Below, one piece after another: positions 15,244 through 29,172 of a stretch of 64,000 nt of DNA. Source of the stretch: Aquabacter sp. L1I39. Lineage in GTDB: Bacteria; Pseudomonadota; Alphaproteobacteria; Rhizobiales; Xanthobacteraceae. The notes beneath the pieces are model-generated. The model saw only the letters and a program-made list of their open reading frames with translations. It did not search any database and had not been told where the DNA came from. Position numbers and translations under genes: made by a program. How positions within the stretch are numbered: position 1 is the stretch's first letter; every line of letters begins with the position of its first letter. The stretch is from positions 263,559 through 327,558 of the forward strand of contig NZ_CP072392.1 of NCBI RefSeq assembly GCF_017742835.1, read 5' to 3'.

Positions 15244-15432
15244 CCCGGCGCGCCTCGCCGCATCCAACACGGCCTCAATGCGGCCCCTGGCGCGGGAAGC
15301 TGTCTCGTTTTTTCCCGCCCAGATGGGCGTCAGGACCGCGAGCACGTCCTCAATGCTGACTTGGTCCAACGCGTTGTCACGGATGGCCGCGTTGGTGGCG
15401 ACGGTCCGGGCGTTGAGTCTGTTGAATTTCAT
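15214..15432 (-). pseudogene. Internally deleted tyrosine integrase (relic of a second copy)
   Basis: The N-terminal MKFNRLNARTVAT is nearly identical to the start of the intact integrase at 27661-28914. It then jumps directly to AIRDNALDQVSIEDVLAVLTP, which corresponds to residue 151 onward of that protein, so about 136 codons are deleted in frame. Similarity ends near codon 195, at the cas8c fragment. The upstream non-coding region to 15574 is also similar (about 90%) to that of the intact copy. All catalytic residues are missing. Confidence 0.85.
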
Positions 15433-15563
15433 GCGGATTGCTAGCGGCGCGGAGCTAGGCGTGATTGCTCCTAGCCCTAGACCTAGACCTTTTGGAGATG
15501 CTCTGCGAAACGGAATCCAGGAACTTCAACGCTTTTGAAAGGGTGCGGGAACGTCTGGAACAG

Positions 15564-15574
15564 GTAATTGGCGG
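15564..15574. repeat. Degraded attachment-site relic
   Basis: GTAATTGGCGG is identical to the sequence spanning the tRNA-Ser 3' end at 29078-29088. Similarity to the tRNA stops right after it. It marks the outer end of the integrase relic and probably an old att site. Confidence 0.5.
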
Positions 15575-17367: not shown

Positions 17368-18363
17368 ATGACTTTGCAGACGCCTCTCATACAGTCCCTC
17401 GACTTGACGGTTCCGATCATCCTGGCGCCGATGGCTGGCATTGCGGGCGGCGCTCTGGCGGTGGCGGTATCCGGGGCGGGCGGCCTCGGCCTTATCGGCG
17501 GCGGCTATGGCGATCGCGGCTGGATCGAACGCGAGTTCGAGATTGCTGGCGGGGAGAGGATTGGAATCGGGTTCATCACCTGGGCGCTTGCCCGCCAGCC
17601 TGAGCTTCTTTCGTTAGCGTTGGAGCGCGGTCCGCGCGCGGTTCTCCTTTCTTTTGGCGACCTGCGTCCATTCGCGCCGTCGATCGCCAGGGCCGGCATC
17701 CCGCTCATCGCTCAAGTCCAAACGGTCGAGGACGCGCGCATCGCTGTCGGTGAGGGCGCAACGATCATAGTCGCGCAGGGAACGGAAGCTGGCGGGCATA
17801 GCGGCGAGCGCGCGACAATGGCGCTCGTTCCAGCCGTCGTGGATGCGGTTGCGCCTGTCCCTGTCATTGCCGCCGGCGGCATTGCCGATGGTCGTGGCTT
17901 GGCGGCGGCGTTGATGCTGGGGGCTGCAGGCGTCCTCTGCGGCACCGTATTTTACGCCGCCGCGGAATCGCTGGCGCACCAGAACGCCAAGAAGCGAGTG
18001 GTCGAGGCTTCGGGCGATCATACGGTCAAGGGAAGTGTGTTCGATGTCGTGCGCGGGTATGACTGGCCCACCCCTTGGGCGATCCGCACGCTGCGCAATG
18101 CCTTCTATGACCGCTGGTCCCGCGATCTTGACGACGTACGCCGAACGCCTGGTCCCCACCGGAAGAGCTATTCCGACGCACAGGATCGGGGCAATGTCGA
18201 GGTGGCGGCAGTCATCGTCGGCGAGGCGGTTGATCTTGTGCGCACGATCGAGCCAGCATCGGCGCTAGTCGAGCGCGTCCTGACCGAAGCGTCGGACTGC
18301 TTGGCGAATGGCGCAAAGCTGCTTGACCTCTCTCACCGTGGCAATCGACGGTCGGGTCTATAG
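17368..18363 (+). CDS. Nitronate monooxygenase (2-nitropropane dioxygenase family)
   Basis: A 331-residue FMN-dependent TIM-barrel enzyme. PIILAPMAGIAGGALAVAVS begins the barrel (flavin contact), AQGTEAGGHSG carries the conserved HxG catalytic region, and PVIAAGGIADGRGLAAALMLGAAGVLCGT holds the phosphate-binding strand-loop-helix. It oxidises alkyl nitronates or acts on related enolates. The frame is open upstream to 17311; ATG 17368 is preferred because it matches the family start and lies just after the tautomerase stop. Confidence 0.9.
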   Translation: MTLQTPLIQSLDLTVPIILAPMAGIAGGALAVAVSGAGGLGLIGGGYGDRGWIEREFEIAGGERIGIGFITWALARQPELLSLALERGPRAVLLSFGDLRPFAPSIARAGIPLIAQVQTVEDARIAVGEGATIIVAQGTEAGGHSGERATMALVPAVVDAVAPVPVIAAGGIADGRGLAAALMLGAAGVLCGTVFYAAAESLAHQNAKKRVVEASGDHTVKGSVFDVVRGYDWPTPWAIRTLRNAFYDRWSRDLDDVRRTPGPHRKSYSDAQDRGNVEVAAVIVGEAVDLVRTIEPASALVERVLTEASDCLANGAKLLDLSHRGNRRSGL

Positions 18364-18411
18364 CGTGACCGAACGTATGGGATGACGCCTGTTCACCCCC
18401 TCGGGAGGAAA

Positions 18412-18470
18412 ATGAGGACGTAGAATAAATTCATCGGTCTCGATGTTCACAAGGATACGATTGCCGTGCC
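18412..18470 (+). pseudogene. IS110-family transposase, 5' relic
   Basis: After GGGAGGAAA, an ATG is followed by a TAG as fourth codon and then NKFIGLDVHKDTIAV, the hallmark N terminus of IS110/IS1111 DEDD transposases (IGLDVHKDT). The similarity ends within a few codons. The in-frame stop and the missing body show it is inactive. Confidence 0.75.
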
Positions 18471-18596
18471 GATGTGGCCGAGGCGTTCGTGGCTGCGCTA
18501 TGCCACCCCAACACCTCGCGGACGACCTTCGAGATCGCATGGGGTAAGAGAACAGCGGCAGGATGCCGCCATAGCCGCGCAGCGGAAAGTTTGTAG

Positions 18597-18610
18597 TGGC
18601 GGAGAGGGAG
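18597..18610. repeat. Left attachment repeat of the tRNA-Ser element
   Basis: TGGCGGAGAGGGAG matches 14 of 14 bases with the tRNA-Ser 3' end at 29083-29096 and then diverges. It marks the far end of the 10.5-kb element. Confidence 0.75.
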
Positions 18611-18674
18611 TCCTCAGAACTTTTCGCCTAACGCCTTGTATCAGAACGGAAAAATTTATACCGAATCACAACAA

Positions 18675-18693
18675 CCCTAGCACTGACCCTAGC
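18675..18693. promoter_or_regulatory. Possible integrase arm-type sites (left end)
   Basis: Two direct copies of CCCTAGC start 12 bp apart, 65 bp inside the left attachment repeat. Related CCTAGCCC/CCCTAA repeats occur at 28953-28981 near the right end. Such short direct repeats at both ends fit arm-type integrase or excisionase binding sites. Confidence 0.4.
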
Positions 18694-18811
18694 GAAATGC
18701 TCCGCGTCAGGGCTTTTGCCTATCGCACGGGTGGTCAGGCGGGGCGGTGCGAGGCCATTCTAAAAGCGACTGTAGCACGGCGGCGCAAGTCACGTCTGCC
18801 GCCCCGTTTCG

Positions 18812-19615
18812 TCAGTGCTTCTCGGTCGGGACAAGGTGCAAGAGCCCCTGCCCCTTGGCGCCCTTCCGCTTCAGCGAAGTTGCGATGTGGTTGCGGATGA
18901 TCTCGCCGCCCTGTTCGCGCGTAACCCAATCGGCCGCCGCCTCGCGGGGGAAGCGCCACCGCCGGTAGACGTCGATCTCGGTCGGGGTGCGGAAAGCCGC
19001 CAGCCCGCGCTCCAGGCAGTAGGTCTTGAGGTGACGGGTGATGATCAGCCCCGTCCCGCGCACCCGCGTTTCCGGCCGGATGCCCGCCATGTCCAACACG
19101 TCGCGGGACGTCACGGTCCCGGCAAGATCGAACGTGGGGGCCGCAGCCGACTTCGCCGCACGAAGCTCCTGGGCCAGCCGGCCGATCGTCTCCAGCGCGG
19201 CTTCCATCCCCTCGCGAAGGTCCGCGATCTGCCGCCCCGTGACGGCCTTCACGACGCCGCCGATCCTGCGCAGGATCTCGGCCTCATTGAACGCCGGAAT
19301 GGCGTGGGGGTTAGCGGCCTGCGCAGCAACGTGCGCTTCCAGTTGCTGCCACCGATCGATGATGCGGGCGCGAAGCGTGACGCTATAGCCAGAGACCAAG
19401 ATCAGGCACTCGCGCTTGGGGAGGCGAAAGATCGGATAAGACTGGCCGTTTTGGGGGTTTAGGTGGGTGTCCTCAAAACTGAGGACACCCCCCTTTCCGT
19501 GCAATTCCAACAACATAGAGCGGATGTCGCGCATCACATTGTCATGACGCTTCACGGTCAGTTTCGCGATCTCCACCGAGGACATCGTGAGGGGCTCGCC
19601 GGGCTTTCCGGGCAT
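18812..19615 (-). CDS. Rha-family phage antirepressor/regulatory protein
   Basis: A 267-residue protein (from M at 19615). The N-terminal Rha domain reads EPLTMSSVEIAKLTVKRHDNVMRDIRSML, then a variable tip GVLSFEDTHL, then FRLPKRECLILVSGYSVTLRARIIDRWQQLE. A helical linker follows, and the C-terminal third (SRDVLDMAGIRPETRV, then VTREQGGEIIRNHI) is an antirepressor-type domain. Rha proteins are lytic-switch regulators of temperate phages. The frame is open further up to 19945, with MQEFRNIKDL at 19849 as another possible start; the family normally has about ten residues before TMSS, favouring 19615. The hairpin at 19465-19490 lies within the tip codons. Confidence 0.85.
   Translation of the reverse strand: MPGKPGEPLTMSSVEIAKLTVKRHDNVMRDIRSMLLELHGKGGVLSFEDTHLNPQNGQSYPIFRLPKRECLILVSGYSVTLRARIIDRWQQLEAHVAAQAANPHAIPAFNEAEILRRIGGVVKAVTGRQIADLREGMEAALETIGRLAQELRAAKSAAAPTFDLAGTVTSRDVLDMAGIRPETRVRGTGLIITRHLKTYCLERGLAAFRTPTEIDVYRRWRFPREAAADWVTREQGGEIIRNHIATSLKRKGAKGQGLLHLVPTEKH
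19465..19490 (-). repeat. Tip hairpin of the intact rha gene
   Basis: GGGTGTCCTC and GAGGACACCC form a perfect 10-bp stem around the loop AAAACT (AGTTTT on the coding strand). It encodes the variable tip of the Rha N-terminal domain, with the Phe codon TTT in the loop. It is the reference member of the hairpin series at 19963-21598. Confidence 0.8.
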
Positions 19616-19818
19616 GATCGACGGAACCGGATTCGCAGCCGCCGCGTCCTCGTGCTTCGGCTCCTCAGCCTTGCGCGACTTGGGCGCTTCCTTGGGCGCG
19701 GTCAGGTCTTCGATCCGGCGCCGCAGGTAGGCAAGTCTTGACCTGGGGAGAAAGTGGCGCGACCACGATCGGGAAGGAGCGCTCGGCCTCGCGTATATCC
19801 ACCAATGGTGGGCGTGCA

Positions 19819-19861
19819 CTAAGTCTTTGATATTGCGAAATTCCTGCATTGCAGGGCTTCT
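19819..19861 (-). repeat. 43-bp duplicated block, copy A
   Basis: Begins CTAAGTCTTTGATA and contains the palindrome CCTGCATTGCAGG. About 38 of 43 bases match copy B at 20722-20764. On the minus strand it could encode MQEFRNIKDL at the head of the long rha frame, or be its promoter/leader. Confidence 0.7.
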
Positions 19862-20028
19862 GCGAAAATAGGCGCACGTCTGGCGATGGTGTCCAACGCT
19901 ATCGGTGCGGGGTTCGTCCACAGACTGTGGGCGGACGAAAACCACTCGGCACTACAGAGGCGCCCCCAAATTTGGGGAGGTGGAAGAGTTCAATGGCGCG
20001 CGTCGAACCATTCGGCCCTGCAATTTGA

Positions 20029-20096
20029 GCAGCGGCTGAAAAGTCAGCCGCTGCCTTTCCTACCTCTGGCAACATCTTCCGCGTGTTGGCGAGGGC
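20029..20096 (-). pseudogene. rha N-terminal relic with a perfect 10-bp hairpin
   Basis: Reads ALANTRKMLPEVGKAAADF on the minus strand, resembling the HVMRDIRKML-E-x-GK helix and tip of Rha. The hairpin at 20029-20054 pairs GCAGCGGCTG with CAGCCGCTGC around AAAAGT, with no mismatch. Confidence 0.65.
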
Positions 20097-20147
20097 ATTC
20101 GGGGCGATGATGGGGTATGCTCAAAACTGAGCACACCCCCTAACCGA

Positions 20148-20279
20148 GCTGTCCCGATAGCTGCCCCCAAAATCGGGGCCAGCGATATTCCCACTCTCTT
20201 CCAAAATGTTGCGGATGTCCCGCATCACATGGTCATGACCGCTTCTCGGTCAGTTTTGAGATCCCCTCGGCTTCATGAC
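20148..20279 (-). pseudogene. rha N-terminal relic, best preserved, with one frameshift
   Basis: Minus strand reads EGISKLTEKR, then after a one-base insertion HDHVMRDIRNILEESG, then DFGGSYRDSS. This is a textbook Rha N terminus (I-x-x-LT-x-KRHDHVMRDIR). The hairpin at 20160-20183 spans the PDFGGS codons with eight pairs and one mismatch. Confidence 0.75.
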
Positions 20280-20303
20280 CGTCTCCTCAAAATAAGGAGA
20301 CGG
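20279..20303 (-). repeat. Tip hairpin with 9-bp perfect stem
   Basis: CCGTCTCCT pairs with AGGAGACGG around a 7-nt loop CAAAATA. The minus strand codes PSPYFEET, a Rha-like tip detached from its helix. Confidence 0.7.
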
Positions 20304-20361
20304 ATGGCCGAGAGCCCTTCGACGGGATGGGCGTTCCGCCCTTGGGATTGGGTCTGGGGAT

Positions 20362-20429
20362 CGTCCCTCCAAAATTGGAGAGACGTTCCTCTCCGTGCAA
20401 TTCCAACAACATAGCGCGAATATCGCGCC
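20362..20429 (-). pseudogene. rha N-terminal relic (RDIRAMLLELHG ... FGGT)
   Basis: The minus strand reads RDIRAMLLELHGEERLSNF then GGT without a frameshift. It is close to the intact gene's RDIRSMLLELHGKGG. Hairpin 20362-20385 has eight pairs and one mismatch around AAAATT. Confidence 0.75.
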
Positions 20430-20721
20430 TCGGGCTTGGTAGCCGTGGGGATTTCCTGAGACTGAGGGAGCCTGGATCTTCCTCCGATGCAGTATGGCGT
20501 TCGGTTCGAACTGGAAGTTAGTGGGCATCGGCGATCAGTGCTGTTGGTGCCGGGTTCATCCGCCGATGGCGGACGGACAAAGCGTCGTCACATAAAGGCG
20601 ATCAGAAAGCGGCAGCGCTGACCATTCGGCGCGGTTCGACGGGTATGCTCAAAACTGAGCACCCCCCAGCGAGCCGGTGCGATCAGGGCAGAGCTCTTGT
20701 CGAAGACATGCATGGCCTAAG

Positions 20722-20764
20722 CTAAGTCTTTGATAACGTGAACTTCCTGCATTGCACGGCTTCT
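20722..20764 (-). repeat. 43-bp duplicated block, copy B
   Basis: About 88% identical to copy A (19819-19861), in the same orientation. On the minus strand a stop codon follows the MQEVHVIKDLA codons, so this copy cannot open a longer frame. It suggests that a whole rha 5' region was duplicated here. Confidence 0.7.
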
Positions 20765-21002
20765 AATGACACCTGCGGGGCAGGCGCGCAATGGTCAGGC
20801 GCACGCACAGCAGCGTGCGCCCTGCAATATCTCGACACCTCAATCTAAAACTGAATTGAGTAAGTCCCCAATGGGGGAACATTCACGGAGCTACGGTTTG
20901 CGAGCCCGCGTGCCTCGCCGCCATCTGGGGAACGGCCTCAAAAGAGAGGCGGTTGAAATCCTCTATGCGAGCGGACGCATTTCGCACGCTAATCTTAGCT
21001 GT

Positions 21003-21096
21003 GGCTGAAAACTGGGCCGCGGCTTTTCCTAGCTCTGCAAACATATTGAGAATCTCCCCCACGACATGCTTGTGCTGCTTTCCGGGCAGCTCGCCC
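21003..21096 (-). pseudogene. rha N-terminal relic (KQHKHVVGEILNM type)
   Basis: Minus strand reads GELPGKQHKHVVGEILNMF and then AELGKAAAQF in one frame. The EHKNV-like helix is typical of another Rha sublineage. Hairpin 20998-21023 has six Watson-Crick pairs, three G-T pairs and one mismatch around AAAACT. Confidence 0.7.
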
Positions 21097-21110
21097 CTCT
21101 CCTCTGCCTC

Positions 21111-21186
21111 ATGACCGTCTGCCCAAAACTGGGCAGACGGTTGTCCCCATGCGATAACATAGATCGAATTTCACGCATCACATGCG
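21111..21186 (-). pseudogene. rha N-terminal relic with a perfect 10-bp hairpin
   Basis: Minus strand reads HVMREIRSMLSHGDNRLPSF then GQTV. The hairpin 21115-21140 pairs CCGTCTGCCC with GGGCAGACGG around AAAACT, the strongest stem in the array, and one further A-T pair extends it. Confidence 0.75.
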
Positions 21187-21399
21187 ATGCCGCTTGCCTG
21201 CAAGTTCCGCAACCCCACCCGCTGCAATACGCTGGTCGGGCAGGTCTTAGCTGCTCGGGTGGCGGGAGCCGAGAAGGGACCGCTTCCCAGTCCTGGGGCG
21301 GGGGCTCTCAAGCATAACGCCCCCCTCTCACGTCTTTCGAGGTGTGTGGTGGCTGAGGACGCCTGCCGACCCAGTGCGCCCGGCCCCGTTGTCCAAGGC

Positions 21400-21484
21400 G
21401 GCATTGTGTCCCACCGACGGTGGAAGTTCAGTCTCGCACCGGTTTGCGAGCCGTTTGACAGAACGCTTCACGTGGTCATGGCAC
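21400..21484 (-). pseudogene. Relic of a divergent Rha type (CHDHVKRSVKRLA)
   Basis: Minus strand reads CHDHVKRSVKRLANR then ETELPPS, the pattern of a second Rha subfamily (RHDHVKRSIERLAERGVI-x-LPP). The tip here contains the palindrome CCACC-GAC-GGTGG instead of the AAAACT hairpin. Confidence 0.6.
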
Positions 21485-21739
21485 CCCGACCTATCCCGTT
21501 GCGTAATCTGGCGGTGGAGCGCGGTTCTAGCCAGTCCTCCTTTTTGGGATGCTGGCATCCTACCCGTTCCGCTCCACAACTGTCCTCAATCTTGGGGGAA
21601 GCGGCATTTCGCCAAATAGGTACCGAAAAAGGGAAGTGAGCGACGCGCGGGGGGGGCTTGCCATAGGCCAGCCGGACAGCTTCACTTGCTTAAGCAGAGG
21701 CGTGGGCCGCCTCTGACCAAGCGGCGGGAGCGAACGCGG

Positions 21740-24244
21740 GTGAGCGAACAGATTGTGCAGCGCCTAAATGCACTCATCGTCGAATATCAGGGGCGCGACC
21801 TCAATGAGGCAGATACGCGACACAAGCTGATCGACTTCGTGCTACACGAAACTCTGGCTTGGCCAAAAAACCGCGTAAGCCTCGAGGAACACATCGCCCC
21901 AGGATATGCGGACTATGTCTTGCGCAAGGGGGACGACGACCCGATTATCGTGGTGGAGGCGAAGAAGGAAGGGGTGTATTTCGAAGTGCCGGACTCATTC
22001 AAGCCCGGTGAATTGTCGGCGTATATTCCACTTTCGAAACTCTTGTCTGATAAGAACATCTCTGCGGCAGCGAAGCAGGTTAGGCGATACTGCCAAGACA
22101 TCGGTTGCGAGTTCGCCTGCATCACTAACGGCCGTGAATGGATATTTTTTAAAATATTTGAGCGCGGAAAGCGCTGGGAAACCCTAAACGCCTTCGTGGC
22201 GCGCGAGATTTCGTTCTTCTCGATCGAGTACACGAAAGCGTATAACGCCTTTTCATACAACGCGATTACAAGCAAACTTTCACTCCCCACCTTACTCACC
22301 AGCGGCGATCAAAAAGATAGAAATATTTTTTACGCGAAAGATCGCATTCCATCTTATTCTCATGCCATTACTGCAAACAAGTTAGCCAAAACTCTTCGGC
22401 CTATCGTCAATCATTACTTCGGAGTTATTGGAGATAATGACGTCGACTTCATGAACAAGTGCTATGTCTCGCACCGGGATTACCATCACAGCTTTGATGG
22501 GATGCGAACGCTTATAGAAGACTCGCTCACTCCCTATTTCGCCGATTACGGCGTCCGACAATTGGACGACACGGGAAAGGGAGGCCGCCTCGGCGGGCGG
22601 CTAACCAAGAATATCAAGAAGGGGCGGAAGGGAGAGGTCCTTGTACTCTTCGGCGGCAAGGGAGCCGGCAAGTCGACCTTTGTTAAACGGCTGCTGCATC
22701 ACAACCCGCCGCGGTGGCTTAAGGATCATGCGGTCATAGCTATAATCGACCTGCTCAACACCCCGGAAGACCTGGGCGTCATCCGGCAGACGATCTGGAG
22801 CACGCTGGTCAGGAGCCTAGATGTTGAGAACTTTCTGAGCGCCGAGCGCGCTGTACTGCTTGAGAAGCTGTTCCACGATCGCTTCGAGGTCGCAAACCGT
22901 CAGCAGCTCGCGGGCCTATCGAAGGCGTCAGAACACTACAACTCCAAGCTCAATGCGCTAGTCGAACATTGGAAAGTCGACCTCCCCTACTGCGCCAAGC
23001 GCCTAGTCGAGTATTGGAAGTCCCAGGACACTGGCATCATCGTTGTTGTGGATAACACAGATCAATATTCTGGCGATATACAGGATTTTTGCTTTTCATC
23101 GGCGCAAGAGATTGCCGACGAACTGGAATGCGTAACGCTCATCTCGATGCGGGAGGAGCGGTTCTACAACTCTAAAATTCACGGTCTGTTGGACGCTTTC
23201 CAGAACGCCGGCTTCCATATCAGCTCGCCCAAGCCCGCGGAAGTGTTCAAGAAGCGGCTTGAGTACACTGCCGACATACTAACCTCCCCTACTGTTCGGC
23301 AAGATATCGACGACGTCGAGGACATCAAGTTAATGGACGAATGCGCCCAGTATCTCCGCATTGTCTCTCGTGAGTTCAATAACGACCGGTCGCCGCTGAA
23401 CAATTTCCTTACAGCGTGTGCGCACGGCGACACTCGATTGTCGCTCGACCTATTTAGGAGCTTTTTGCTGTCGGGTTACACGAATGTCGAGGAGATGCTG
23501 AGCGCCGGTCAGTGGAACTTCCTAATCCATCAGGTGATTAAGCCGGTGATGATCCCCACCAGATACTTTTATGACGAACTGCTCAGCGACATTCCAAACA
23601 TCTACCAGTTGCGAAACGCGCGTCATGGGTCCCACTTTACATCATTGAGGATATTAAGAAAGCTAGCAAAGAGTTTCGACAACGGCGTCGCTTCTTACGT
23701 ACCAATCGCTGTTCTGAAAGCTTATTTTTCCGAGACCTTCAATATGCTCGAAGATTTTACGAGCAATCTTGACATGTTGCTTAAGCACGGATTTGTCGAA
23801 TCAAATAATCGAATCGACCATTATGCGGATGAGGTAGATAGTTTAAAGATTACAGGATATGGACTCTATATATACAGAGAGCTTGCCTACATATTTTCCT
23901 ACTTGGATTTGGTGTGCGTCGATACCGGAGTATTCGACGAGAGTGTCGCTAATCTGCTCGTGCAAGCTGCGAACAAGGAGTATGCTCAGTTCGAAAGGGC
24001 CGACCGCATGGGCCGCATTAGGACGCGCCTGGAACGAGTTGAGCACTTCATTCGATACCTCCAGGCAGAAGAGGCGGCGGAACGTGAACGCTACTCGCTC
24101 GGGATGGCCGAGGAGGAGATGTTTACACACCAATGCGCCCAGAACTTTGCGAGTGAAAGCAAGCGCGTTATGGAAAGCGCTCAGAAGCAGGGCGTTAGGC
24201 GACGTGGAAGGGCGTTTCAACCCGAACGGTCGATAACGCGATAA
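21740..24244 (+). CDS. PD-(D/E)XK nuclease fused to a P-loop NTPase, probable anti-phage protein
   Basis: An 834-residue protein. Residues about 1-150 resemble the N-terminal nuclease of type I restriction HsdR subunits: EADTRHKLIDFVL, then the Asp in ADYVL (about 58), then VVEAKKEG with the E-x-K pair (about 73-75). A P-loop NTPase follows: Walker A FGGKGAGKST (about 304-313), Walker B IIVVVDNTDQ (about 433-442), and LISMREERF as sensor/arginine segment. The C-terminal 350 residues are helical with no family I recognise. GTG 21740 has GGGAG nine bases upstream; TTG 21686 would add 18 basic residues. GC content is visibly lower than in flanking core genes, indicating transfer. No methylase or specificity gene is near, so it is not a classical type I restriction system. 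Confidence 0.8.
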   Translation: MSEQIVQRLNALIVEYQGRDLNEADTRHKLIDFVLHETLAWPKNRVSLEEHIAPGYADYVLRKGDDDPIIVVEAKKEGVYFEVPDSFKPGELSAYIPLSKLLSDKNISAAAKQVRRYCQDIGCEFACITNGREWIFFKIFERGKRWETLNAFVAREISFFSIEYTKAYNAFSYNAITSKLSLPTLLTSGDQKDRNIFYAKDRIPSYSHAITANKLAKTLRPIVNHYFGVIGDNDVDFMNKCYVSHRDYHHSFDGMRTLIEDSLTPYFADYGVRQLDDTGKGGRLGGRLTKNIKKGRKGEVLVLFGGKGAGKSTFVKRLLHHNPPRWLKDHAVIAIIDLLNTPEDLGVIRQTIWSTLVRSLDVENFLSAERAVLLEKLFHDRFEVANRQQLAGLSKASEHYNSKLNALVEHWKVDLPYCAKRLVEYWKSQDTGIIVVVDNTDQYSGDIQDFCFSSAQEIADELECVTLISMREERFYNSKIHGLLDAFQNAGFHISSPKPAEVFKKRLEYTADILTSPTVRQDIDDVEDIKLMDECAQYLRIVSREFNNDRSPLNNFLTACAHGDTRLSLDLFRSFLLSGYTNVEEMLSAGQWNFLIHQVIKPVMIPTRYFYDELLSDIPNIYQLRNARHGSHFTSLRILRKLAKSFDNGVASYVPIAVLKAYFSETFNMLEDFTSNLDMLLKHGFVESNNRIDHYADEVDSLKITGYGLYIYRELAYIFSYLDLVCVDTGVFDESVANLLVQAANKEYAQFERADRMGRIRTRLERVEHFIRYLQAEEAAERERYSLGMAEEEMFTHQCAQNFASESKRVMESAQKQGVRRRGRAFQPERSITR

Positions 24245-24460: not shown

Positions 24461-25387
24461 TCACGCAGCGTTGGAGATGGGGGCCTGCACCGGCACCAAC
24501 TCGGTCAGGGTATGATCGGGCTCGGCCGCAACCTCGTGCGTGTCGCGCTCTGCCTGAAGCTCGGTGAGGCGGTTCAGAACGTAACCGGCGTCCGAAAACG
24601 TCACGCTGCGCCAGTAGGGGGCATCGTCAGCAGAGAGCCCGGGCAGTTCGATGCGGCAGAGACGCTCACCGCTCACGCCGATCTTCTCGCGAATATAGGT
24701 GACTTCGCGAAACGTCTTCTTTTCAAATTCGTCGTAGTGAGGCGGCGCCTTCTTATCGGCGCGTTCGATTTCGCGCCGGCCTTTCCCGCCACCAAGGTCC
24801 TCGATGTTCGACTGGTCGGGATGCGGGCGGTCATGATCGCGCAGGCACCACAGGTCCAGAAGCTTTTCGCTGAGGATGCGACGCGGCTCGTAGGGGCGGT
24901 CGCGGACGGCGGCCTCAACGGGCGGAAGAGGCAAGGCGCCCGAGGGCAGGTAGGCATTCACGCGGTCGGCCAGCGCGTCCGCCTCTGCAATGGTGGCGAT
25001 CAGGTCCACCAACTTGGCGGCGAGCTTGGGATAACGCTCACGGAGCTTCTTCTGAGCGGCCTCACTGACGCGGGCGGCCTCAGCATAGGCCGCCTGCCGC
25101 GCGGCTTCGGCTTCCTTCTCTGCCTTTTCGGCCGCACGCTTGCGAAGAAGCGCGAGTGCGGTCTCCATGTCCTCGATCTCATTGCGCGTGCGCATAATGA
25201 GATTCCGATGATTGATGCGCTCCTCATCGCCACGCATCAAGGCCGCGGGCATCTCTTCTTCGAGCGTGAAGAGCTTGGTGCGAGCACCCTGAATGGCGGC
25301 TTCAATCTCGCGTTCCCCGGCGATCAACTGAGACTCGGTCGCTTTGTTGGAGCGCATGAGGGTGGAGAACTTCTCAAAGATCGACAT
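24461..25387 (-). CDS. Unrecognised coiled-coil protein
   Basis: I do not recognise a family. The 308-residue protein has a long charged helix (about residues 15-125) with Glu/Ala/Lys/Arg heptad-like pattern, for example KRAAEKAEKEAEAARQAAY, likely a coiled coil. A polar middle (DRPHPDQSNIEDL) and a C-terminal section with possible beta structure (YWRSVTFSDAGYVLNRLTEL) follow. No signal peptide or membrane segment. GAGGTG lies eight bases before the ATG. It is the last of three minus-strand genes after the terminator at 27212-27249 and is convergent with the nuclease-NTPase. Confidence 0.7.
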   Translation of the reverse strand: MSIFEKFSTLMRSNKATESQLIAGEREIEAAIQGARTKLFTLEEEMPAALMRGDEERINHRNLIMRTRNEIEDMETALALLRKRAAEKAEKEAEAARQAAYAEAARVSEAAQKKLRERYPKLAAKLVDLIATIAEADALADRVNAYLPSGALPLPPVEAAVRDRPYEPRRILSEKLLDLWCLRDHDRPHPDQSNIEDLGGGKGRREIERADKKAPPHYDEFEKKTFREVTYIREKIGVSGERLCRIELPGLSADDAPYWRSVTFSDAGYVLNRLTELQAERDTHEVAAEPDHTLTELVPVQAPISNAA

Positions 25388-25505: not shown

Positions 25506-27002
25506 TTAGGAGGACCCGAGCCGTTGGGGCCGGGGTGCCGAGGTGGAGACCGGGGGATGGTAGCGGTGCGGGCAGATGGTCCAGTTCGGGACAGTCCTCG
25601 ACCCACTCAAGCCCCGACGCACGGTCAACGTGGCCGCAGATGGCCTAGGAGCGGGCGTGGGAGGGGTTTTGTCTTTGGGCATAGTGAGTGGCCTTGCTGT
25701 GTGAATGGGCGCCTGTGCTTTCCTGATGGGGTTGGGTGAGGGGGCGGCCATGGGGGCCGCCCCCATCTCATTCGCGTCGGGGTGGGCATCGGCGAGATTG
25801 ATGTTGGATTGCTGGATCATTGCCCTACCCGCGAGCGCACGAGAGTCAGCCGACTCTTGCGGGAAGAGAGAGACGACGTTTCCAGGGAACGGCCCGTCTT
25901 CCGAGCGCCGCGCCCGAGCAGGATGGTGATGCACAACGGAGGGGCCACCGCCCTGCCGCTCTTCAAGAAGCGCGCCGTCCACATCCCGACTTCCTGGTCC
26001 GACCGCTTCCCCATCACGGACATAAACGCGCGCTCGCGGATTCCTCCCGCGCGAAACGTCGGATCGGGAGGGCAGGGAGCAAATGTCATCGGCTTCGTCC
26101 TCAGGCTGGGGGGCATGGGAACCGGGCTCGCGCATGTCGGGCGCGAGGGGCGGAGATTCAGCAAGGCAAGAATGGGAGGCCGGGGCGTAATGGCCACGGC
26201 CGATACGCGTGATCTGCCCGGCCTTGGTGAGGCGCGACAGAAGCGGCTTAATTGTCTTAAGGGACAGGCCGGTCGCGGTCGCAATATCAAGGAGGTCGGA
26301 CGCGCCCGCCTGGATGGCGGCGCGGACCTGAGCACTCTGCGGCGGTTGGAAAGTTGCAACCTGCCGTGACGCTACGTTCTTAATATAAATAAGAGCGTCA
26401 CGTTCGGTTGCAACTTTCTCACCAAACCGTTGCAGCGCAAGCCTTTCACGATACCGAGCGTTCCTTGCGCGGGCCATCTCACGACGGCGAGAGGCGCGCC
26501 GCTCCGCGCGCGCCTCGGGGCTTTCGTCGACGGGGTGGAGAGTGACCACCCGGCCCCGCGCTGCAATCTCTCGCACCTCTTCGACCGTGAGTCCCAGGAG
26601 GCGGCCGGCCCTGCAATCGTCGAGGAGGCGATGCGTCCGGGCGGGAAGCACAGCGGCGTGGAGGACATCCAAGCCGATGTCATCCACCCACGAGCGAGGC
26701 AGCACTTCAATCAACCCGGGCACGTCGCAGTGCAGCCCGCCGACACCGTCCAATTTTGACAGCGCATCTGCCAGCACCTCGGCGACACCAGCCCGGCTGA
26801 CAGGAAGCTCGCCCACCTCAGAACGAAGCGAAGCGAGGGCGCGGATGTCTGCCAGCCTACGAAGGGCGAACATCTGCGTCCGCGTGCTGCTCTTAGGGCG
26901 GCGGCTCGCATAGAGCCGATTGACCCGCATTCCCGAACGGGACGGGGAAACTGGAGCGGGAGGACGGTCAACGACGGCCTCGATAGCGAGGGCGGCACTC
27001 AT
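25506..27002 (-). CDS. Unrecognised protein with central winged helix and disordered tail
   Basis: A 498-residue protein with no family I can name. Residues about 40-220 are helical and Arg/Ala-rich (REMARARNARYRERL). About 245-285 reads ASDLLDIATATGLSLKTIKPLLSRLTKAGQITRIGRGHYAP, a winged-helix DNA-binding pattern (helix, recognition helix, wing). The last 200 residues are low-complexity, Pro/Ser/Arg-rich and probably disordered. The start at 27002 shares its A with the stop of the 58-residue gene (TGATG), so translation is probably coupled. A replication-initiator or regulator role in the element is possible but is only inference. Confidence 0.65.
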   Translation of the reverse strand: MSAALAIEAVVDRPPAPVSPSRSGMRVNRLYASRRPKSSTRTQMFALRRLADIRALASLRSEVGELPVSRAGVAEVLADALSKLDGVGGLHCDVPGLIEVLPRSWVDDIGLDVLHAAVLPARTHRLLDDCRAGRLLGLTVEEVREIAARGRVVTLHPVDESPEARAERRASRRREMARARNARYRERLALQRFGEKVATERDALIYIKNVASRQVATFQPPQSAQVRAAIQAGASDLLDIATATGLSLKTIKPLLSRLTKAGQITRIGRGHYAPASHSCLAESPPLAPDMREPGSHAPQPEDEADDICSLPSRSDVSRGRNPRARVYVRDGEAVGPGSRDVDGALLEERQGGGPSVVHHHPARARRSEDGPFPGNVVSLFPQESADSRALAGRAMIQQSNINLADAHPDANEMGAAPMAAPSPNPIRKAQAPIHTARPLTMPKDKTPPTPAPRPSAATLTVRRGLSGSRTVPNWTICPHRYHPPVSTSAPRPQRLGSS

Positions 27003-27178
27003 CACTGCACTCGCGTCATGATCGCGGCGAACGCGGCGTGATAATTCGTGAAACGCACAGGAATATCGACGAGCATTCCGCCGCAATTGCGGAAAGCCAT
27101 AAAGCAGTCTTCGCAGTCAAGAATGACGCCGGCCTGCCTTCCTTCGCGAAAGACCCTTGTGATGCGATCGGTATTCAT
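27002..27178 (-). CDS. Small hypothetical protein (58 aa), coupled to the winged-helix gene
   Basis: ATG 27178 opens MNTDRITRVFREGRQAGVIL, then DCEDCFMAFRNCGGML with three cysteines, and ends ITR-like at MTRVQ. The TGA stop overlaps the next start by one base. The C-x-x-C spacing hints at metal binding. No family is recognised. Confidence 0.55.
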   Translation of the reverse strand: MNTDRITRVFREGRQAGVILDCEDCFMAFRNCGGMLVDIPVRFTNYHAAFAAIMTRVQ

Positions 27179-27660: not shown

Positions 27661-28914
27661 TCACCTCGCCGCCGACGGATTTGCCGGGCTCGAACAGACA
27701 AACGCATCCCAGGCATCCATCAACTCCCGTCGCTTTTCCAAGGCGTCTCCGCGCCGGTAAGCGAGTTCAGTCGCATCGCCGACTGCGTGAGCCAGAGCTG
27801 CCTCCGCGACCTCGCGCGGAAAGGCAGTAGTGTCGCCTGCCCAGTCCCGGAACGTGGAGCGGAAGCCGTGCGCGGTTGCGTCGACCTCCAAGCGCCTTAA
27901 GAGGGCAATGAGAGCAACGTCACTCAATTGACTGCCCTTTCGCATTCCCGGGAAGACGAACCTTTCCGGATCGTTTCCTAATTGGCCCACGGTTTGGAGA
28001 ATCTCCACCGCCCTATTGGTGAGCGGGACCCTGTGGATGCGGCCCGCTTTCATGCGTTCTGCCGGGATGGTCCAGAGGCGCGCGTCCAGATCGATTTCAC
28101 TCCATCTCGCGCCCCTAACTTCCCCTGATCGTGCAGCCGTGAGAATGGCGAACTCAAGCGCAAAGCTACTCATGCCGCGCACAAGGCGGAGCCTCCGAAC
28201 GAACGCGGGCAGGTCCGAATATGGCAGGGCCGCGTGATTCCCGCGCTGCAGCTTTTGGCGTTTCGGCAGCGTCAGGGCGAGGTGTCCCTTCCAGCGCGCC
28301 GGGTTTTCGCCGGTCCTGAGCCCCTTCGCCTTCGCCGCATCCAGCACGGCCTCAATGCGGCCCCTGACGCGGGAAGCTGTCTCATTTTTTCCCGCCCAGA
28401 TGGGCGTCAGGATCGCGAGCACGTCCTCAGTGCTGACTTGGTCCACCGCCTTGTCGCGGATGGCCGAGCAATAGCCGCCGGCCTTGAAGCTTCCGTCTTC
28501 ATCGCGCTCCAGGCTGAGCGTGTACCGCCACTGAGCCGCGTGCTTGCTATTCCGCCACCCCGGCTCCATTGCGCGGATATGCTCTTCCGCCACCTGCCCG
28601 AAAGTGATTGCGTTCCTGGTCGCTGCCGCCTTCCGGCGCTCGGCGATGGGGTCTATCCCCATCGCCGCCTTCTCACGCGCCTCGGCCGCGAGTTGCCTAG
28701 CTAGGGCCAAGGAGACCGTCCCCAACGGCCCTAACCCCAACTCCCGCATCTTCCCTGCCCCAGGCGCGGAGGGGTCGGCTTTCCAACGGAAGAAGAGGCT
28801 CCAGGACTTTGAGCCGGTCGGAGACACCACCAGATAAAGGTTTCCGCCATCAGCGTGGCGTCCTGGCTTTGTGATGGTGGCGACGGTTCGGGCGTTGAGG
28901 CGATTGAGTTTCAT
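27661..28914 (-). CDS. Tyrosine integrase, P4 type, of the tRNA-Ser element
   Basis: A 417-residue site-specific recombinase. The N-terminal DUF4102-like arm-binding domain (LNARTVATITKPGRHADGGNLYLVV) is followed by a SAM-like core-binding region (EEHIRAMEPGWRNSKHAAQW). The catalytic domain carries Arg262 (TAARSGEVRGARW), His349 and Arg352 (HGFRSTFRDW), His376 and Tyr386 (TELAYRRGD). All five are present, so it should be active. It starts 172 bp from the tRNA-Ser 3' end. A deleted relative is at 15214-15432. Confidence 0.95.
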   Translation of the reverse strand: MKLNRLNARTVATITKPGRHADGGNLYLVVSPTGSKSWSLFFRWKADPSAPGAGKMRELGLGPLGTVSLALARQLAAEAREKAAMGIDPIAERRKAAATRNAITFGQVAEEHIRAMEPGWRNSKHAAQWRYTLSLERDEDGSFKAGGYCSAIRDKAVDQVSTEDVLAILTPIWAGKNETASRVRGRIEAVLDAAKAKGLRTGENPARWKGHLALTLPKRQKLQRGNHAALPYSDLPAFVRRLRLVRGMSSFALEFAILTAARSGEVRGARWSEIDLDARLWTIPAERMKAGRIHRVPLTNRAVEILQTVGQLGNDPERFVFPGMRKGSQLSDVALIALLRRLEVDATAHGFRSTFRDWAGDTTAFPREVAEAALAHAVGDATELAYRRGDALEKRRELMDAWDAFVCSSPANPSAAR

Positions 28915-28952
28915 GAGGCTGCTAGGGGGCGCATAGCTAGGGCGTCATTGCT

Positions 28953-28981
28953 CCTAGCCCTAACCCTAACAGCAAACCTAG
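28953..28981. promoter_or_regulatory. Possible integrase arm-type sites (right end)
   Basis: CCTAGCCCTAACCCTAAC followed by ACCTAG lies between the integrase start and the tRNA attachment site. Similar CCTAG repeats are kept at the relic end (15467-15488) and near the left end (18675-18693), as expected for recombinase arm sites. Confidence 0.45.
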
Positions 28982-29082
28982 ATTGAGGGGAATTTCGCGG
29001 CGCTTTCGGAGACGCTCTGCGAAACAGAATCCAGGAAATTCAACGCTTTTGAAAGGGTGTGGGAAAGCCTGGAACATGTAAT

Positions 29083-29096
29083 TGGCGGAGAGGGAG
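29083..29096. repeat. Right attachment repeat within tRNA-Ser
   Basis: TGGCGGAGAGGGAG is the 3' acceptor end of the tRNA (complement), including CCA. It is identical to 18597-18610. Confidence 0.75.
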
Positions 29097-29172
29097 GGAT
29101 TTGAACCCCCGATACGGTCGCCCGTATGCCGCATTTCGAGTGCGGTGCATTCAACCACTCTGCCACCTCTCC
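29083..29172 (-). tRNA. tRNA-Ser (anticodon CGA)
   Basis: The minus strand folds as a 90-nt class II tRNA. Acceptor GGAGAGG pairs with CCTCTCC, discriminator G, and encoded CCA. The anticodon stem CCGCA/TGCGG holds the loop CTCGAAA (anticodon CGA, codon UCG). A long variable arm (ATACGGGCGACCGTAT region) and GGTTCAAATCC T-loop are present. It serves as the insertion target of the element. Confidence 0.95.

Follow-up and report, generated by a model that had tools for sequence, protein, structure and literature searches.

Results

The rha gene and the fragments upstream of it

We analysed a stretch of 64,000 nucleotides (nt) from Aquabacter sp. L1I39 (contig NZ_CP072392.1, positions 263,559 to 327,558), hereafter the window, in which an intact rha gene on the minus strand is preceded by an array of decayed gene pieces of the Rha and Roi types. 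The codons for the tip of the DNA-binding domain of the intact gene form a palindrome. Comparison with related sequences indicates that this tip palindrome is very probably an operator for the gene's own product, and that the array is probably a graveyard of such helix-plus-operator cassettes whose base pairing was inherited.

The product of the intact gene belongs to the Phage_pRha family (PF09669; 66.1 bits vs. a cut-off of 29.9), and its open frame extends to 19945, through fossil sequence. An AlphaFold2 model of the Rha domain (mean predicted local distance difference test score 87.7) places the residues that are read below as a code (R28, D30, N31, and R34) at the start of a helix spanning residues 29–44, and the operator codons in a short helical turn and the first wing strand. 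Structural matches of the model to solved winged helices were weak, a sequence search for relatives of the domain with solved structures returned none, and a MarR fold was rejected because Foldseek gave only an E value of 0.045 and a template modeling score of 0.29. Both arms of the palindrome carry the half-site TGAGGA, matching the prediction from the helix HDNVMRD. The half-site pair has one other match in the genome, probably by chance.

An earlier note on this DNA had described about eleven Rha fragments upstream of the intact gene and on the same strand, in an array reaching 21640. Their position and orientation were borne out. With Rha domains from elsewhere as queries, tblastn found about seven fragments, all on the minus strand (E 9e-16 to 0.002, computed for a chosen set size of 1 Mb) and limited to the helix-to-tip portion of the domain, and further Roi-type tips were recognised by eye (Table 1). 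Number and extent had to be revised: the array holds about 13–14 recognisable tips besides that of the intact gene, one of them (at 20849) being doubtful, and the fragments reach to about 21240, with no Rha match by tblastn from there to 21640. Rha-type and Roi-type tips, with at least seven types of half-site, lie side by side.

Palindromes are strongly enriched in the array. Counting that of the intact gene, eight operator-like palindromes (score of at least 5) occur in 2.24 kb, where 0.36 would be expected at the density of the remaining window and 0.27 in shuffled sequence; the palindromes described earlier are thus real and in excess of chance. Under a looser definition there are 11 vs. 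1.78 expected with a 4-nt spacer, and 12 vs. 4.13 expected with a 3-nt spacer, most of these 12 not being operator-like. At score 8, the window has five palindromes in 2.5 kb and each of the other 522 loci has at most two; when the score is loosened to 6, locus L277 likewise reaches six per 2.5 kb, these including plain A/T-rich ones, and L271 and L293 have five. As the earlier note had also stated, stems differ from copy to copy and pairing persists next to frameshifts. Fossils that retain a helix mostly fit their own palindrome by the code described below (HDHVMRD with TGGGG, NALAN with TCAGCC, SHVMRE with TGGGCA, and RDIR with TGGAG); the helix HKHV fits TGGGCC in one arm only.

Table 1 Intact rha gene and recognisable fossils in the window
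Feature	Position	Strand	Evidence and remarks
Intact rha gene	18812..19615	minus	Open reading frame (ORF) list; Pfam Phage_pRha 4.2e-18; start codon inferred
Predicted operator of intact rha, coding strand GGGTGTCCTCA-gttt-TGAGGACACCC	19465..19490	minus	Palindrome scan and helix code
Recognition helix of intact Rha, R-H-D-N-V-M-R-D-I	19499..19549	minus	AlphaFold2 model and covariation
Fossil Roi-type tip CCACC-ATT-GGTGG, reads PPLVDI	19797..19813	minus	By eye, near 19805; same tip class as L020
Integration host factor (IHF) consensus sequence TATCAAAGACTTA	19820..19832	minus	Starts 17 nt from centre of operator at 19849, as in HK022 roi
Fossil Roi-type operator CCTGC-AAT-GCAGG, reads PAMQ (HK022 Roi: PALQ)	19842..19856	minus	Palindrome scan; by eye, near 19849
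Fossil Rha-type palindrome, half-site TGGGG	19959..19982	minus	Palindrome scan
Fossil cassette NALANTRKMLPEVGKAAADFSAAAQIAGPNGS, operator 20029-20054, half-site TCAGCC	19971..20099	minus	tblastn span 20099-19971, E 9e-16; Asn-A, Ala-C fit
Fossil tip GGVLSFEHT, palindrome centre 20125, half-site TGAGCA	20099..20140	minus	tblastn span 20140-20099; palindrome scan
Fossil cassette HDHVMRDIRNILEESGNIAGPDFGGSY, palindrome centre 20171, half-site TGGGG	20139..20237	minus	tblastn span 20237-20139; His-G, Arg-G, Asp-G fit
Fossil palindrome CCGTCTCCTTATTTTGAGGAGACGG, slipped centre	20279..20303	minus	Palindrome scan
Fossil cassette RDIRAMLLELHGEERLSNFGGTIPRPNPKGG, palindrome centre 20373, half-site TGGAG	20317..20427	minus	tblastn span 20427-20317; Arg-G fits
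Fossil Roi-type tip CCGCC-ATC-GGCGG, reads PPSADEPG (L019: PPMADEPG)	20558..20574	minus	Palindrome scan; by eye, near 20566
Fossil tip, half-site TGAGCA, reads GVLSFEHT	20641..20666	minus	Palindrome scan
Second fossil Roi-type tip: IHF consensus 20723-20735, decayed operator 20746-20759	20723..20759	minus	By eye
Decayed palindrome, doubtful, without Rha match	20838..20861	minus	Palindrome scan
Fossil cassette GKQHKHVVGEILNMFAELGKAAAQFSATAKI, half-sites TGGGCC (as helix predicts) and TCAGCC	20967..21107	minus	tblastn span 21107-20967, E 7e-11
Three-frame fossil cassette (GKRHR / SHVMREIRSML / LPSFGQT), operator 21114-21141, half-site TGGGCA	21083..21234	minus	tblastn spans 21187-21083 and 21234-21187; palindrome scan

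Palindromes across the Rha and Roi family

For comparison with other genes, two sets of 80 loci from viruses and one of 80 from genomes were combined with loci fetched earlier (individual loci carry L numbers), yielding 269 domains that were reduced to 180 on the basis of shared 8-mers. In other, intact rha genes the equivalent position also holds a palindrome, with stem sequences unrelated to one another, and the idea of a system unique to the array was dropped because these genes share the palindrome. A best hairpin score of at least 10 was reached in 26 of the 180 non-redundant domains vs. a mean of 0.35 in 20 synonymous-codon shuffles, and 49 of the 55 palindromes scoring at least 8 lie inside one 40-nt zone of the domain. 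Watson-Crick pairing over nine positions, assessed in the 55 of 180 tips that are ungapped in the alignment, with the rha gene of the window setting the register, was 0.648 in register compared with 0.24–0.305 in six slid registers. Mutual information was calculated for 41 of these 55 tips, 14 misaligned multi-tip or off-register rows having been dropped; the six highest-ranking of 630 column pairs in the 36-nt tip were all stem pairs, i.e., the stems covary. Base pairing thus determines in part which amino acids the wing contains (e.g., Leu...Glu, Pro...Gly, Leu...Gln). What had been described as a 6-nt loop is better regarded as an A/T-rich spacer of 4 nt in the Rha type and 3 nt in the Roi type. 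The pairing had been taken to reflect a constraint at the level of nucleic acid, which still holds, but the palindrome is not confined to dead genes, as living genes carry it too.

Variants of this arrangement occur within the sample. Single rha genes in L187, L236, and L293 have two or three tandem tip operators with differing half-sites, one operator per gene agreeing with the helix encoded there, and another Rha-like group (L021, L022, and L208) has the common palindrome GGTTTATTTC-atgc-GAAATAAACC, with the loop atac in L022. KilA-N domains show palindromes of score at least 10 in four of ten cases vs. 0.15 after shuffling. Within the domain of individual KilA-N genes (L309, L311, L314, L324, and L018:2526-2552) palindromes of 9–13 bp were observed.

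Correspondence between recognition helix and half-site

The bases of the half-site track residues of the recognition helix encoded 15–25 codons upstream. Palindromes for this comparison were chosen by pairing alone, with a score of at least 6, which retained 150 of 176 genes; four further domains lack the helix motif. In the motif H-x-y-V-a-b, residue y sets half-site position 3, residue b position 2, and residue x position 5. Counted per half-site, position 3 was A with Asn in 130/132, G with His in 98/102, and C with Asp in 58/58 cases; position 2 was G with Arg (197/208) and C with Ala (22/24), Lys being mixed; and position 5 was G with Asp (172/178) and C with Lys (40/40) or Arg (34/34). 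Both half-sites fit residue y in 146 of 149 genes, by a table learned on the same genes. The three misfits are L121, whose second palindrome fits, L036, a Roi-type gene that fits with a 3-nt spacer, and L107, a poor hit. When 71 protein columns were compared as predictors, the helix residues came first for positions 3 and 5.

Since the table was learned on the genes to which it was applied, prediction between subfamilies counts more. A rule trained on alpha-type genes predicted phi80-type genes, whose domains are roughly 16–33% identical to that of the window, correctly at position 3 in 51/51 and at position 5 in 43/50 cases, compared with maxima of 30 and 29 for permuted helices; residues unseen in training were skipped. 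In the reverse direction, from phi80-type to alpha-type, 92/95 and 86/92 predictions were correct at positions 3 and 5, vs. 55 and 72 of 95 for the majority bases. Roi-type genes with their 3-nt spacer obey the same rule (Asn-A 26/26, Asp-C 8/8, and Ser-T 14/14 half-sites at position 3; Lys-G 17/18 and Arg-G 46/46 half-sites), as counted with a score of at least 5 out of 38 combinations, HK022 itself (score 4) being left out.

Target of the predicted operator

Clerget and Boccard reportedly found in 1996 (J Bacteriol 178:4077) that the Roi protein of phage HK022 binds inside the gene that encodes it, next to a site for IHF. We located the HK022 roi gene at L367:10656-11381, where its tip carries CCTGC-ATT-GCAGC; the gene is unannotated in NC_002166. 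A sequence matching the IHF consensus starts 17 nt from the operator centre in HK022 roi and in three other Escherichia coli roi alleles examined. The whole 64-kb window contains just three instances of this consensus, and two fossil Roi-type tips of the array keep it at the spacing seen in E. coli roi. IHF was nevertheless rejected as a general partner: of 43 distinct genes of the Roi type, three have the consensus within 60 nt downstream of the operator, and 149 Rha-type genes together gave one hit in the first 30 nt. The study of HK022 Roi is cited in PMC3430580 and PMC4587872.

Copies of each gene's own site were sought elsewhere. In flanks of 1.5–4 kb, a second own site was found in 6 of 150 loci, not beyond the 6–9 obtained with foreign operators. 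Ten whole phage genomes were taken, of which S1249 gave no helix, and in eight of the remaining nine the own site is unique. As the site is near-unique in phages and second copies in the flanks do not exceed the control, the main target is taken to be the gene itself, and this near-uniqueness suggests autoregulation.

Joint replacement of helix and predicted operator

Four E. coli roi alleles are 98–100% identical over bp 1–60 and 95–100% identical after bp 240, compared with mostly 50–80% over bp 61–240, the part that contains helix and operator (L401 and L444 share bp 61–120). Judging from these alignments, the helix, which would determine specificity, and the predicted operator, which would serve as address, are replaced together among these alleles. 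The earlier suggestion that tips move as units is therefore correct for helix and operator, with the exchange taking place between phage genes.

Discussion

Proposed mechanism and points against it

The best explanation of these data is that the Rha/Roi domain is winged-helix-like and that the start of its recognition helix reads a half-site of 5–6 bp, with Asn, His, Asp, and Ser specifying A, G, C, and T at position 3, Arg specifying G and Ala, Thr, or Val specifying C at position 2, and Asp specifying G and Lys or Arg specifying C at position 5. Two such half-sites would stand head to head around a 3–4 bp A/T-rich spacer, placed in the wing-tip codons of the gene that encodes the helix. This would join helix and operator in one cassette of about 150–180 bp that could be exchanged whole. 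The protein presumably binds the palindrome within its own gene and, once bound, would repress that gene's transcription, together with IHF in the case of HK022; we infer negative autoregulation from this arrangement. The array would be a graveyard of cassettes of several specificities whose pairing is inherited from living copies, and its simplest reading is that rha cassettes repeatedly arrived and decayed in one place.

Several results weigh against this interpretation. The palindrome of HK022 itself is short, with a score of 4, and 26 of 176 genes fall below the palindrome threshold. The IHF consensus is infrequent downstream of Roi-type operators, and it is not found near the intact rha gene of the window. 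Phage phi2 (L531) has a second perfect site and a site with one mismatch, at 939 and 9437; the perfect second copy lies within a span annotated as an integrase gene and may mark a further target of regulation. Within the code, position 2 is best predicted by a tip column, which ranks above the helix residue. Its transfer from alpha-type to phi80-type genes (31/45) does not exceed the majority base (40/55), and where the corresponding residue is Lys, one group has A and the other G. Transfer in the reverse direction gave 67/81, with the majority base at 67/95. Some columns linked to subfamily also rank high as predictors; so do some tip codons, of which the palindrome itself is made and one of which heads the ranking for position 2.

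Alternative explanations

The stem-loop could instead act as RNA, i.e., as an mRNA hairpin to which the gene's product or an antisense RNA binds, or as a pause signal. Stems in the coding sequence reach 13 bp with short loops, and antirepressors of other phages are under antisense control. An mRNA hairpin should favour G.U pairs, but mismatches in 128 palindromes comprise 25 G.T and 21 A.C, about equal numbers, which disfavours the RNA reading, as does the dependence of the bases on recognition-helix residues of a domain resembling a helix-turn-helix (HTH). Both arms read alike, as would suit an operator bound by a symmetric dimer, and Rfam gave no match up to E 1 in 18000–22500 of the window. 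We therefore consider a role as RNA very improbable. Near-perfect palindromes within a variable protein loop, and the tandem tips within single genes noted above, might also be expected from template switching at quasi-palindromes or from hairpin targets of a recombinase, both of which had been proposed in the earlier note. Neither process predicts half-site bases that follow the gene's own recognition helix, or a rule that transfers between subfamilies, and an origin of this kind without an operator role is scarcely credible.

With the tip palindrome read as an operator, different roles of the array can be considered. The fragments span just the helix-to-tip cassette that is exchanged among E. 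coli roi alleles, and several are open over it, as would be expected of silent cassettes forming a donor bank that replaces helix and tip of the expressed rha gene by gene conversion. However, the fragments are diverged and frameshifted, the exchange observed in E. coli roi is between phage genes, no tip was seen to have been swapped out of the array, a comparison of the array with 100 other genomes gave short matches at most, in four of them, and no comparable cluster was found in the fetched loci with flanks of 1.5–4 kb; a donor bank thus appears quite unlikely. In a search with about half of the 180 domains as queries, 434 of 440 Rha places in the fetched loci were full domains, and three of the six partial ones are in the window. 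BLASTN of the locus against phages and plasmids gave short matches only. Lone Rha-domain fossils outside full domains were seen at L237:2754-2849, L277:3544-3576, and L282:3575-3700. The adjacency of at least seven half-site types and the persistence of palindromes beside frameshifts could also point to a decoy array that titrates Rha/Roi proteins of incoming phages. According to PMC4488673, lambda is arrested by ectopic copies of its origin, which is located inside gene O. That test relied on a multicopy plasmid, whereas single chromosomal copies may titrate little, and only one such array was seen, making a decoy function distinctly improbable. A broader proposal, in which Rha/Roi and part of the KilA-N genes would be self-addressed regulators, with the operator written into the DNA-binding domain so that specificity and address evolve and travel jointly, and the arrays address libraries that serve a prophage-bearing host as decoys against Rha/Roi proteins of incoming phages or as donors of new specificities, is likewise unlikely.

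Relation to known systems

The arrangement had initially been thought to lack any described counterpart, a view to which the reported binding of HK022 Roi within its own gene provides a counterexample. HK022 Roi is an HTH protein of the same family, with the tip palindrome and the IHF consensus described above, and differs from the intact rha gene of the window in having that consensus nearby. To our knowledge, the HK022 result concerns one phage, and no family-wide palindrome, recognition code, or cassette exchange was described with it. Arrays with partial copies of a variable segment beside one expressed gene are familiar from silent-cassette systems such as pilE/pilS, but no variation of the expressed rha copy was seen and arrays like that of the window are rare among the loci searched. 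In KilA-N/APSES, palindromes occur without a derived recognition code, and the sequences are few. The binding sites of the lambda O protein also lie within its own gene, as stated in PMC4488673. In both cases protein and site travel together; ori-lambda has four 19-bp iterons used in replication, whereas Rha has one palindrome in the codons of the DNA-binding domain itself.

A site within the protein's own gene is hence already known, from lambda O and reportedly from Roi. A family-wide intragenic Rha/Roi operator was not found in the open-licence literature searched, and in PMC8951638 the terms 'Rha protein' and 'Roi' are absent as whole words. Nor did that literature yield a description of operators embedded in the codons of the DNA-binding domain throughout a family, of a code that can be read from them, of the exchange of such cassettes, or of an array of their fossils. 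If the interpretation is correct, the binding site of a phage regulator could be read from its own gene, and a recognition code would be available from helix and half-site over more than a hundred natural pairs. It would also explain how antirepressor-like genes shuffle between phages without losing control, provide a family-wide basis for the old HK022 Roi result, and show what was described as a silent hairpin array to be an archive of specificities that once existed.

Neighbouring genes and additional observations

A decayed copy of an integrase start and attachment region is present at 15251–15574 of the window, with pieces 84–94% identical to 28327–29088, and an intact integrase gene (27661–28914) adjoins a tRNA-Ser gene (29083–29172). 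Because the rha locus is situated between the decayed and the intact integrase copies, it probably lies within an old integrated element. Next to the array, an 852-aa protein is encoded at 21686–24244 on the plus strand, with a start resembling type I restriction HSDR_N and an AAA-type ATPase region; PADLOC returned no match for this protein. The ORFs at 24461–25387 and 25506–27086, both on the minus strand, gave weak PADLOC matches to Drt5 and AbiEi.

RhuM genes were considered as a further case of the same phenomenon on account of palindromes in L002, L025, and L029, and were rejected because 21 RhuM tips have no general even-spaced palindrome. The RhuM genes of L002 and L025, which belong to two genera, have in common, at the equivalent position, a palindrome of 10 bp whose loop is 5 nt long, and the ORF beside RhuM in L002 resembles a DNA methyltransferase subunit. 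Hairpins of 17–18 bp built on GCCGTCTGAA occur at L173:1388-1428 and 2919-2957, and resemble the uptake-sequence terminators of Neisseria.

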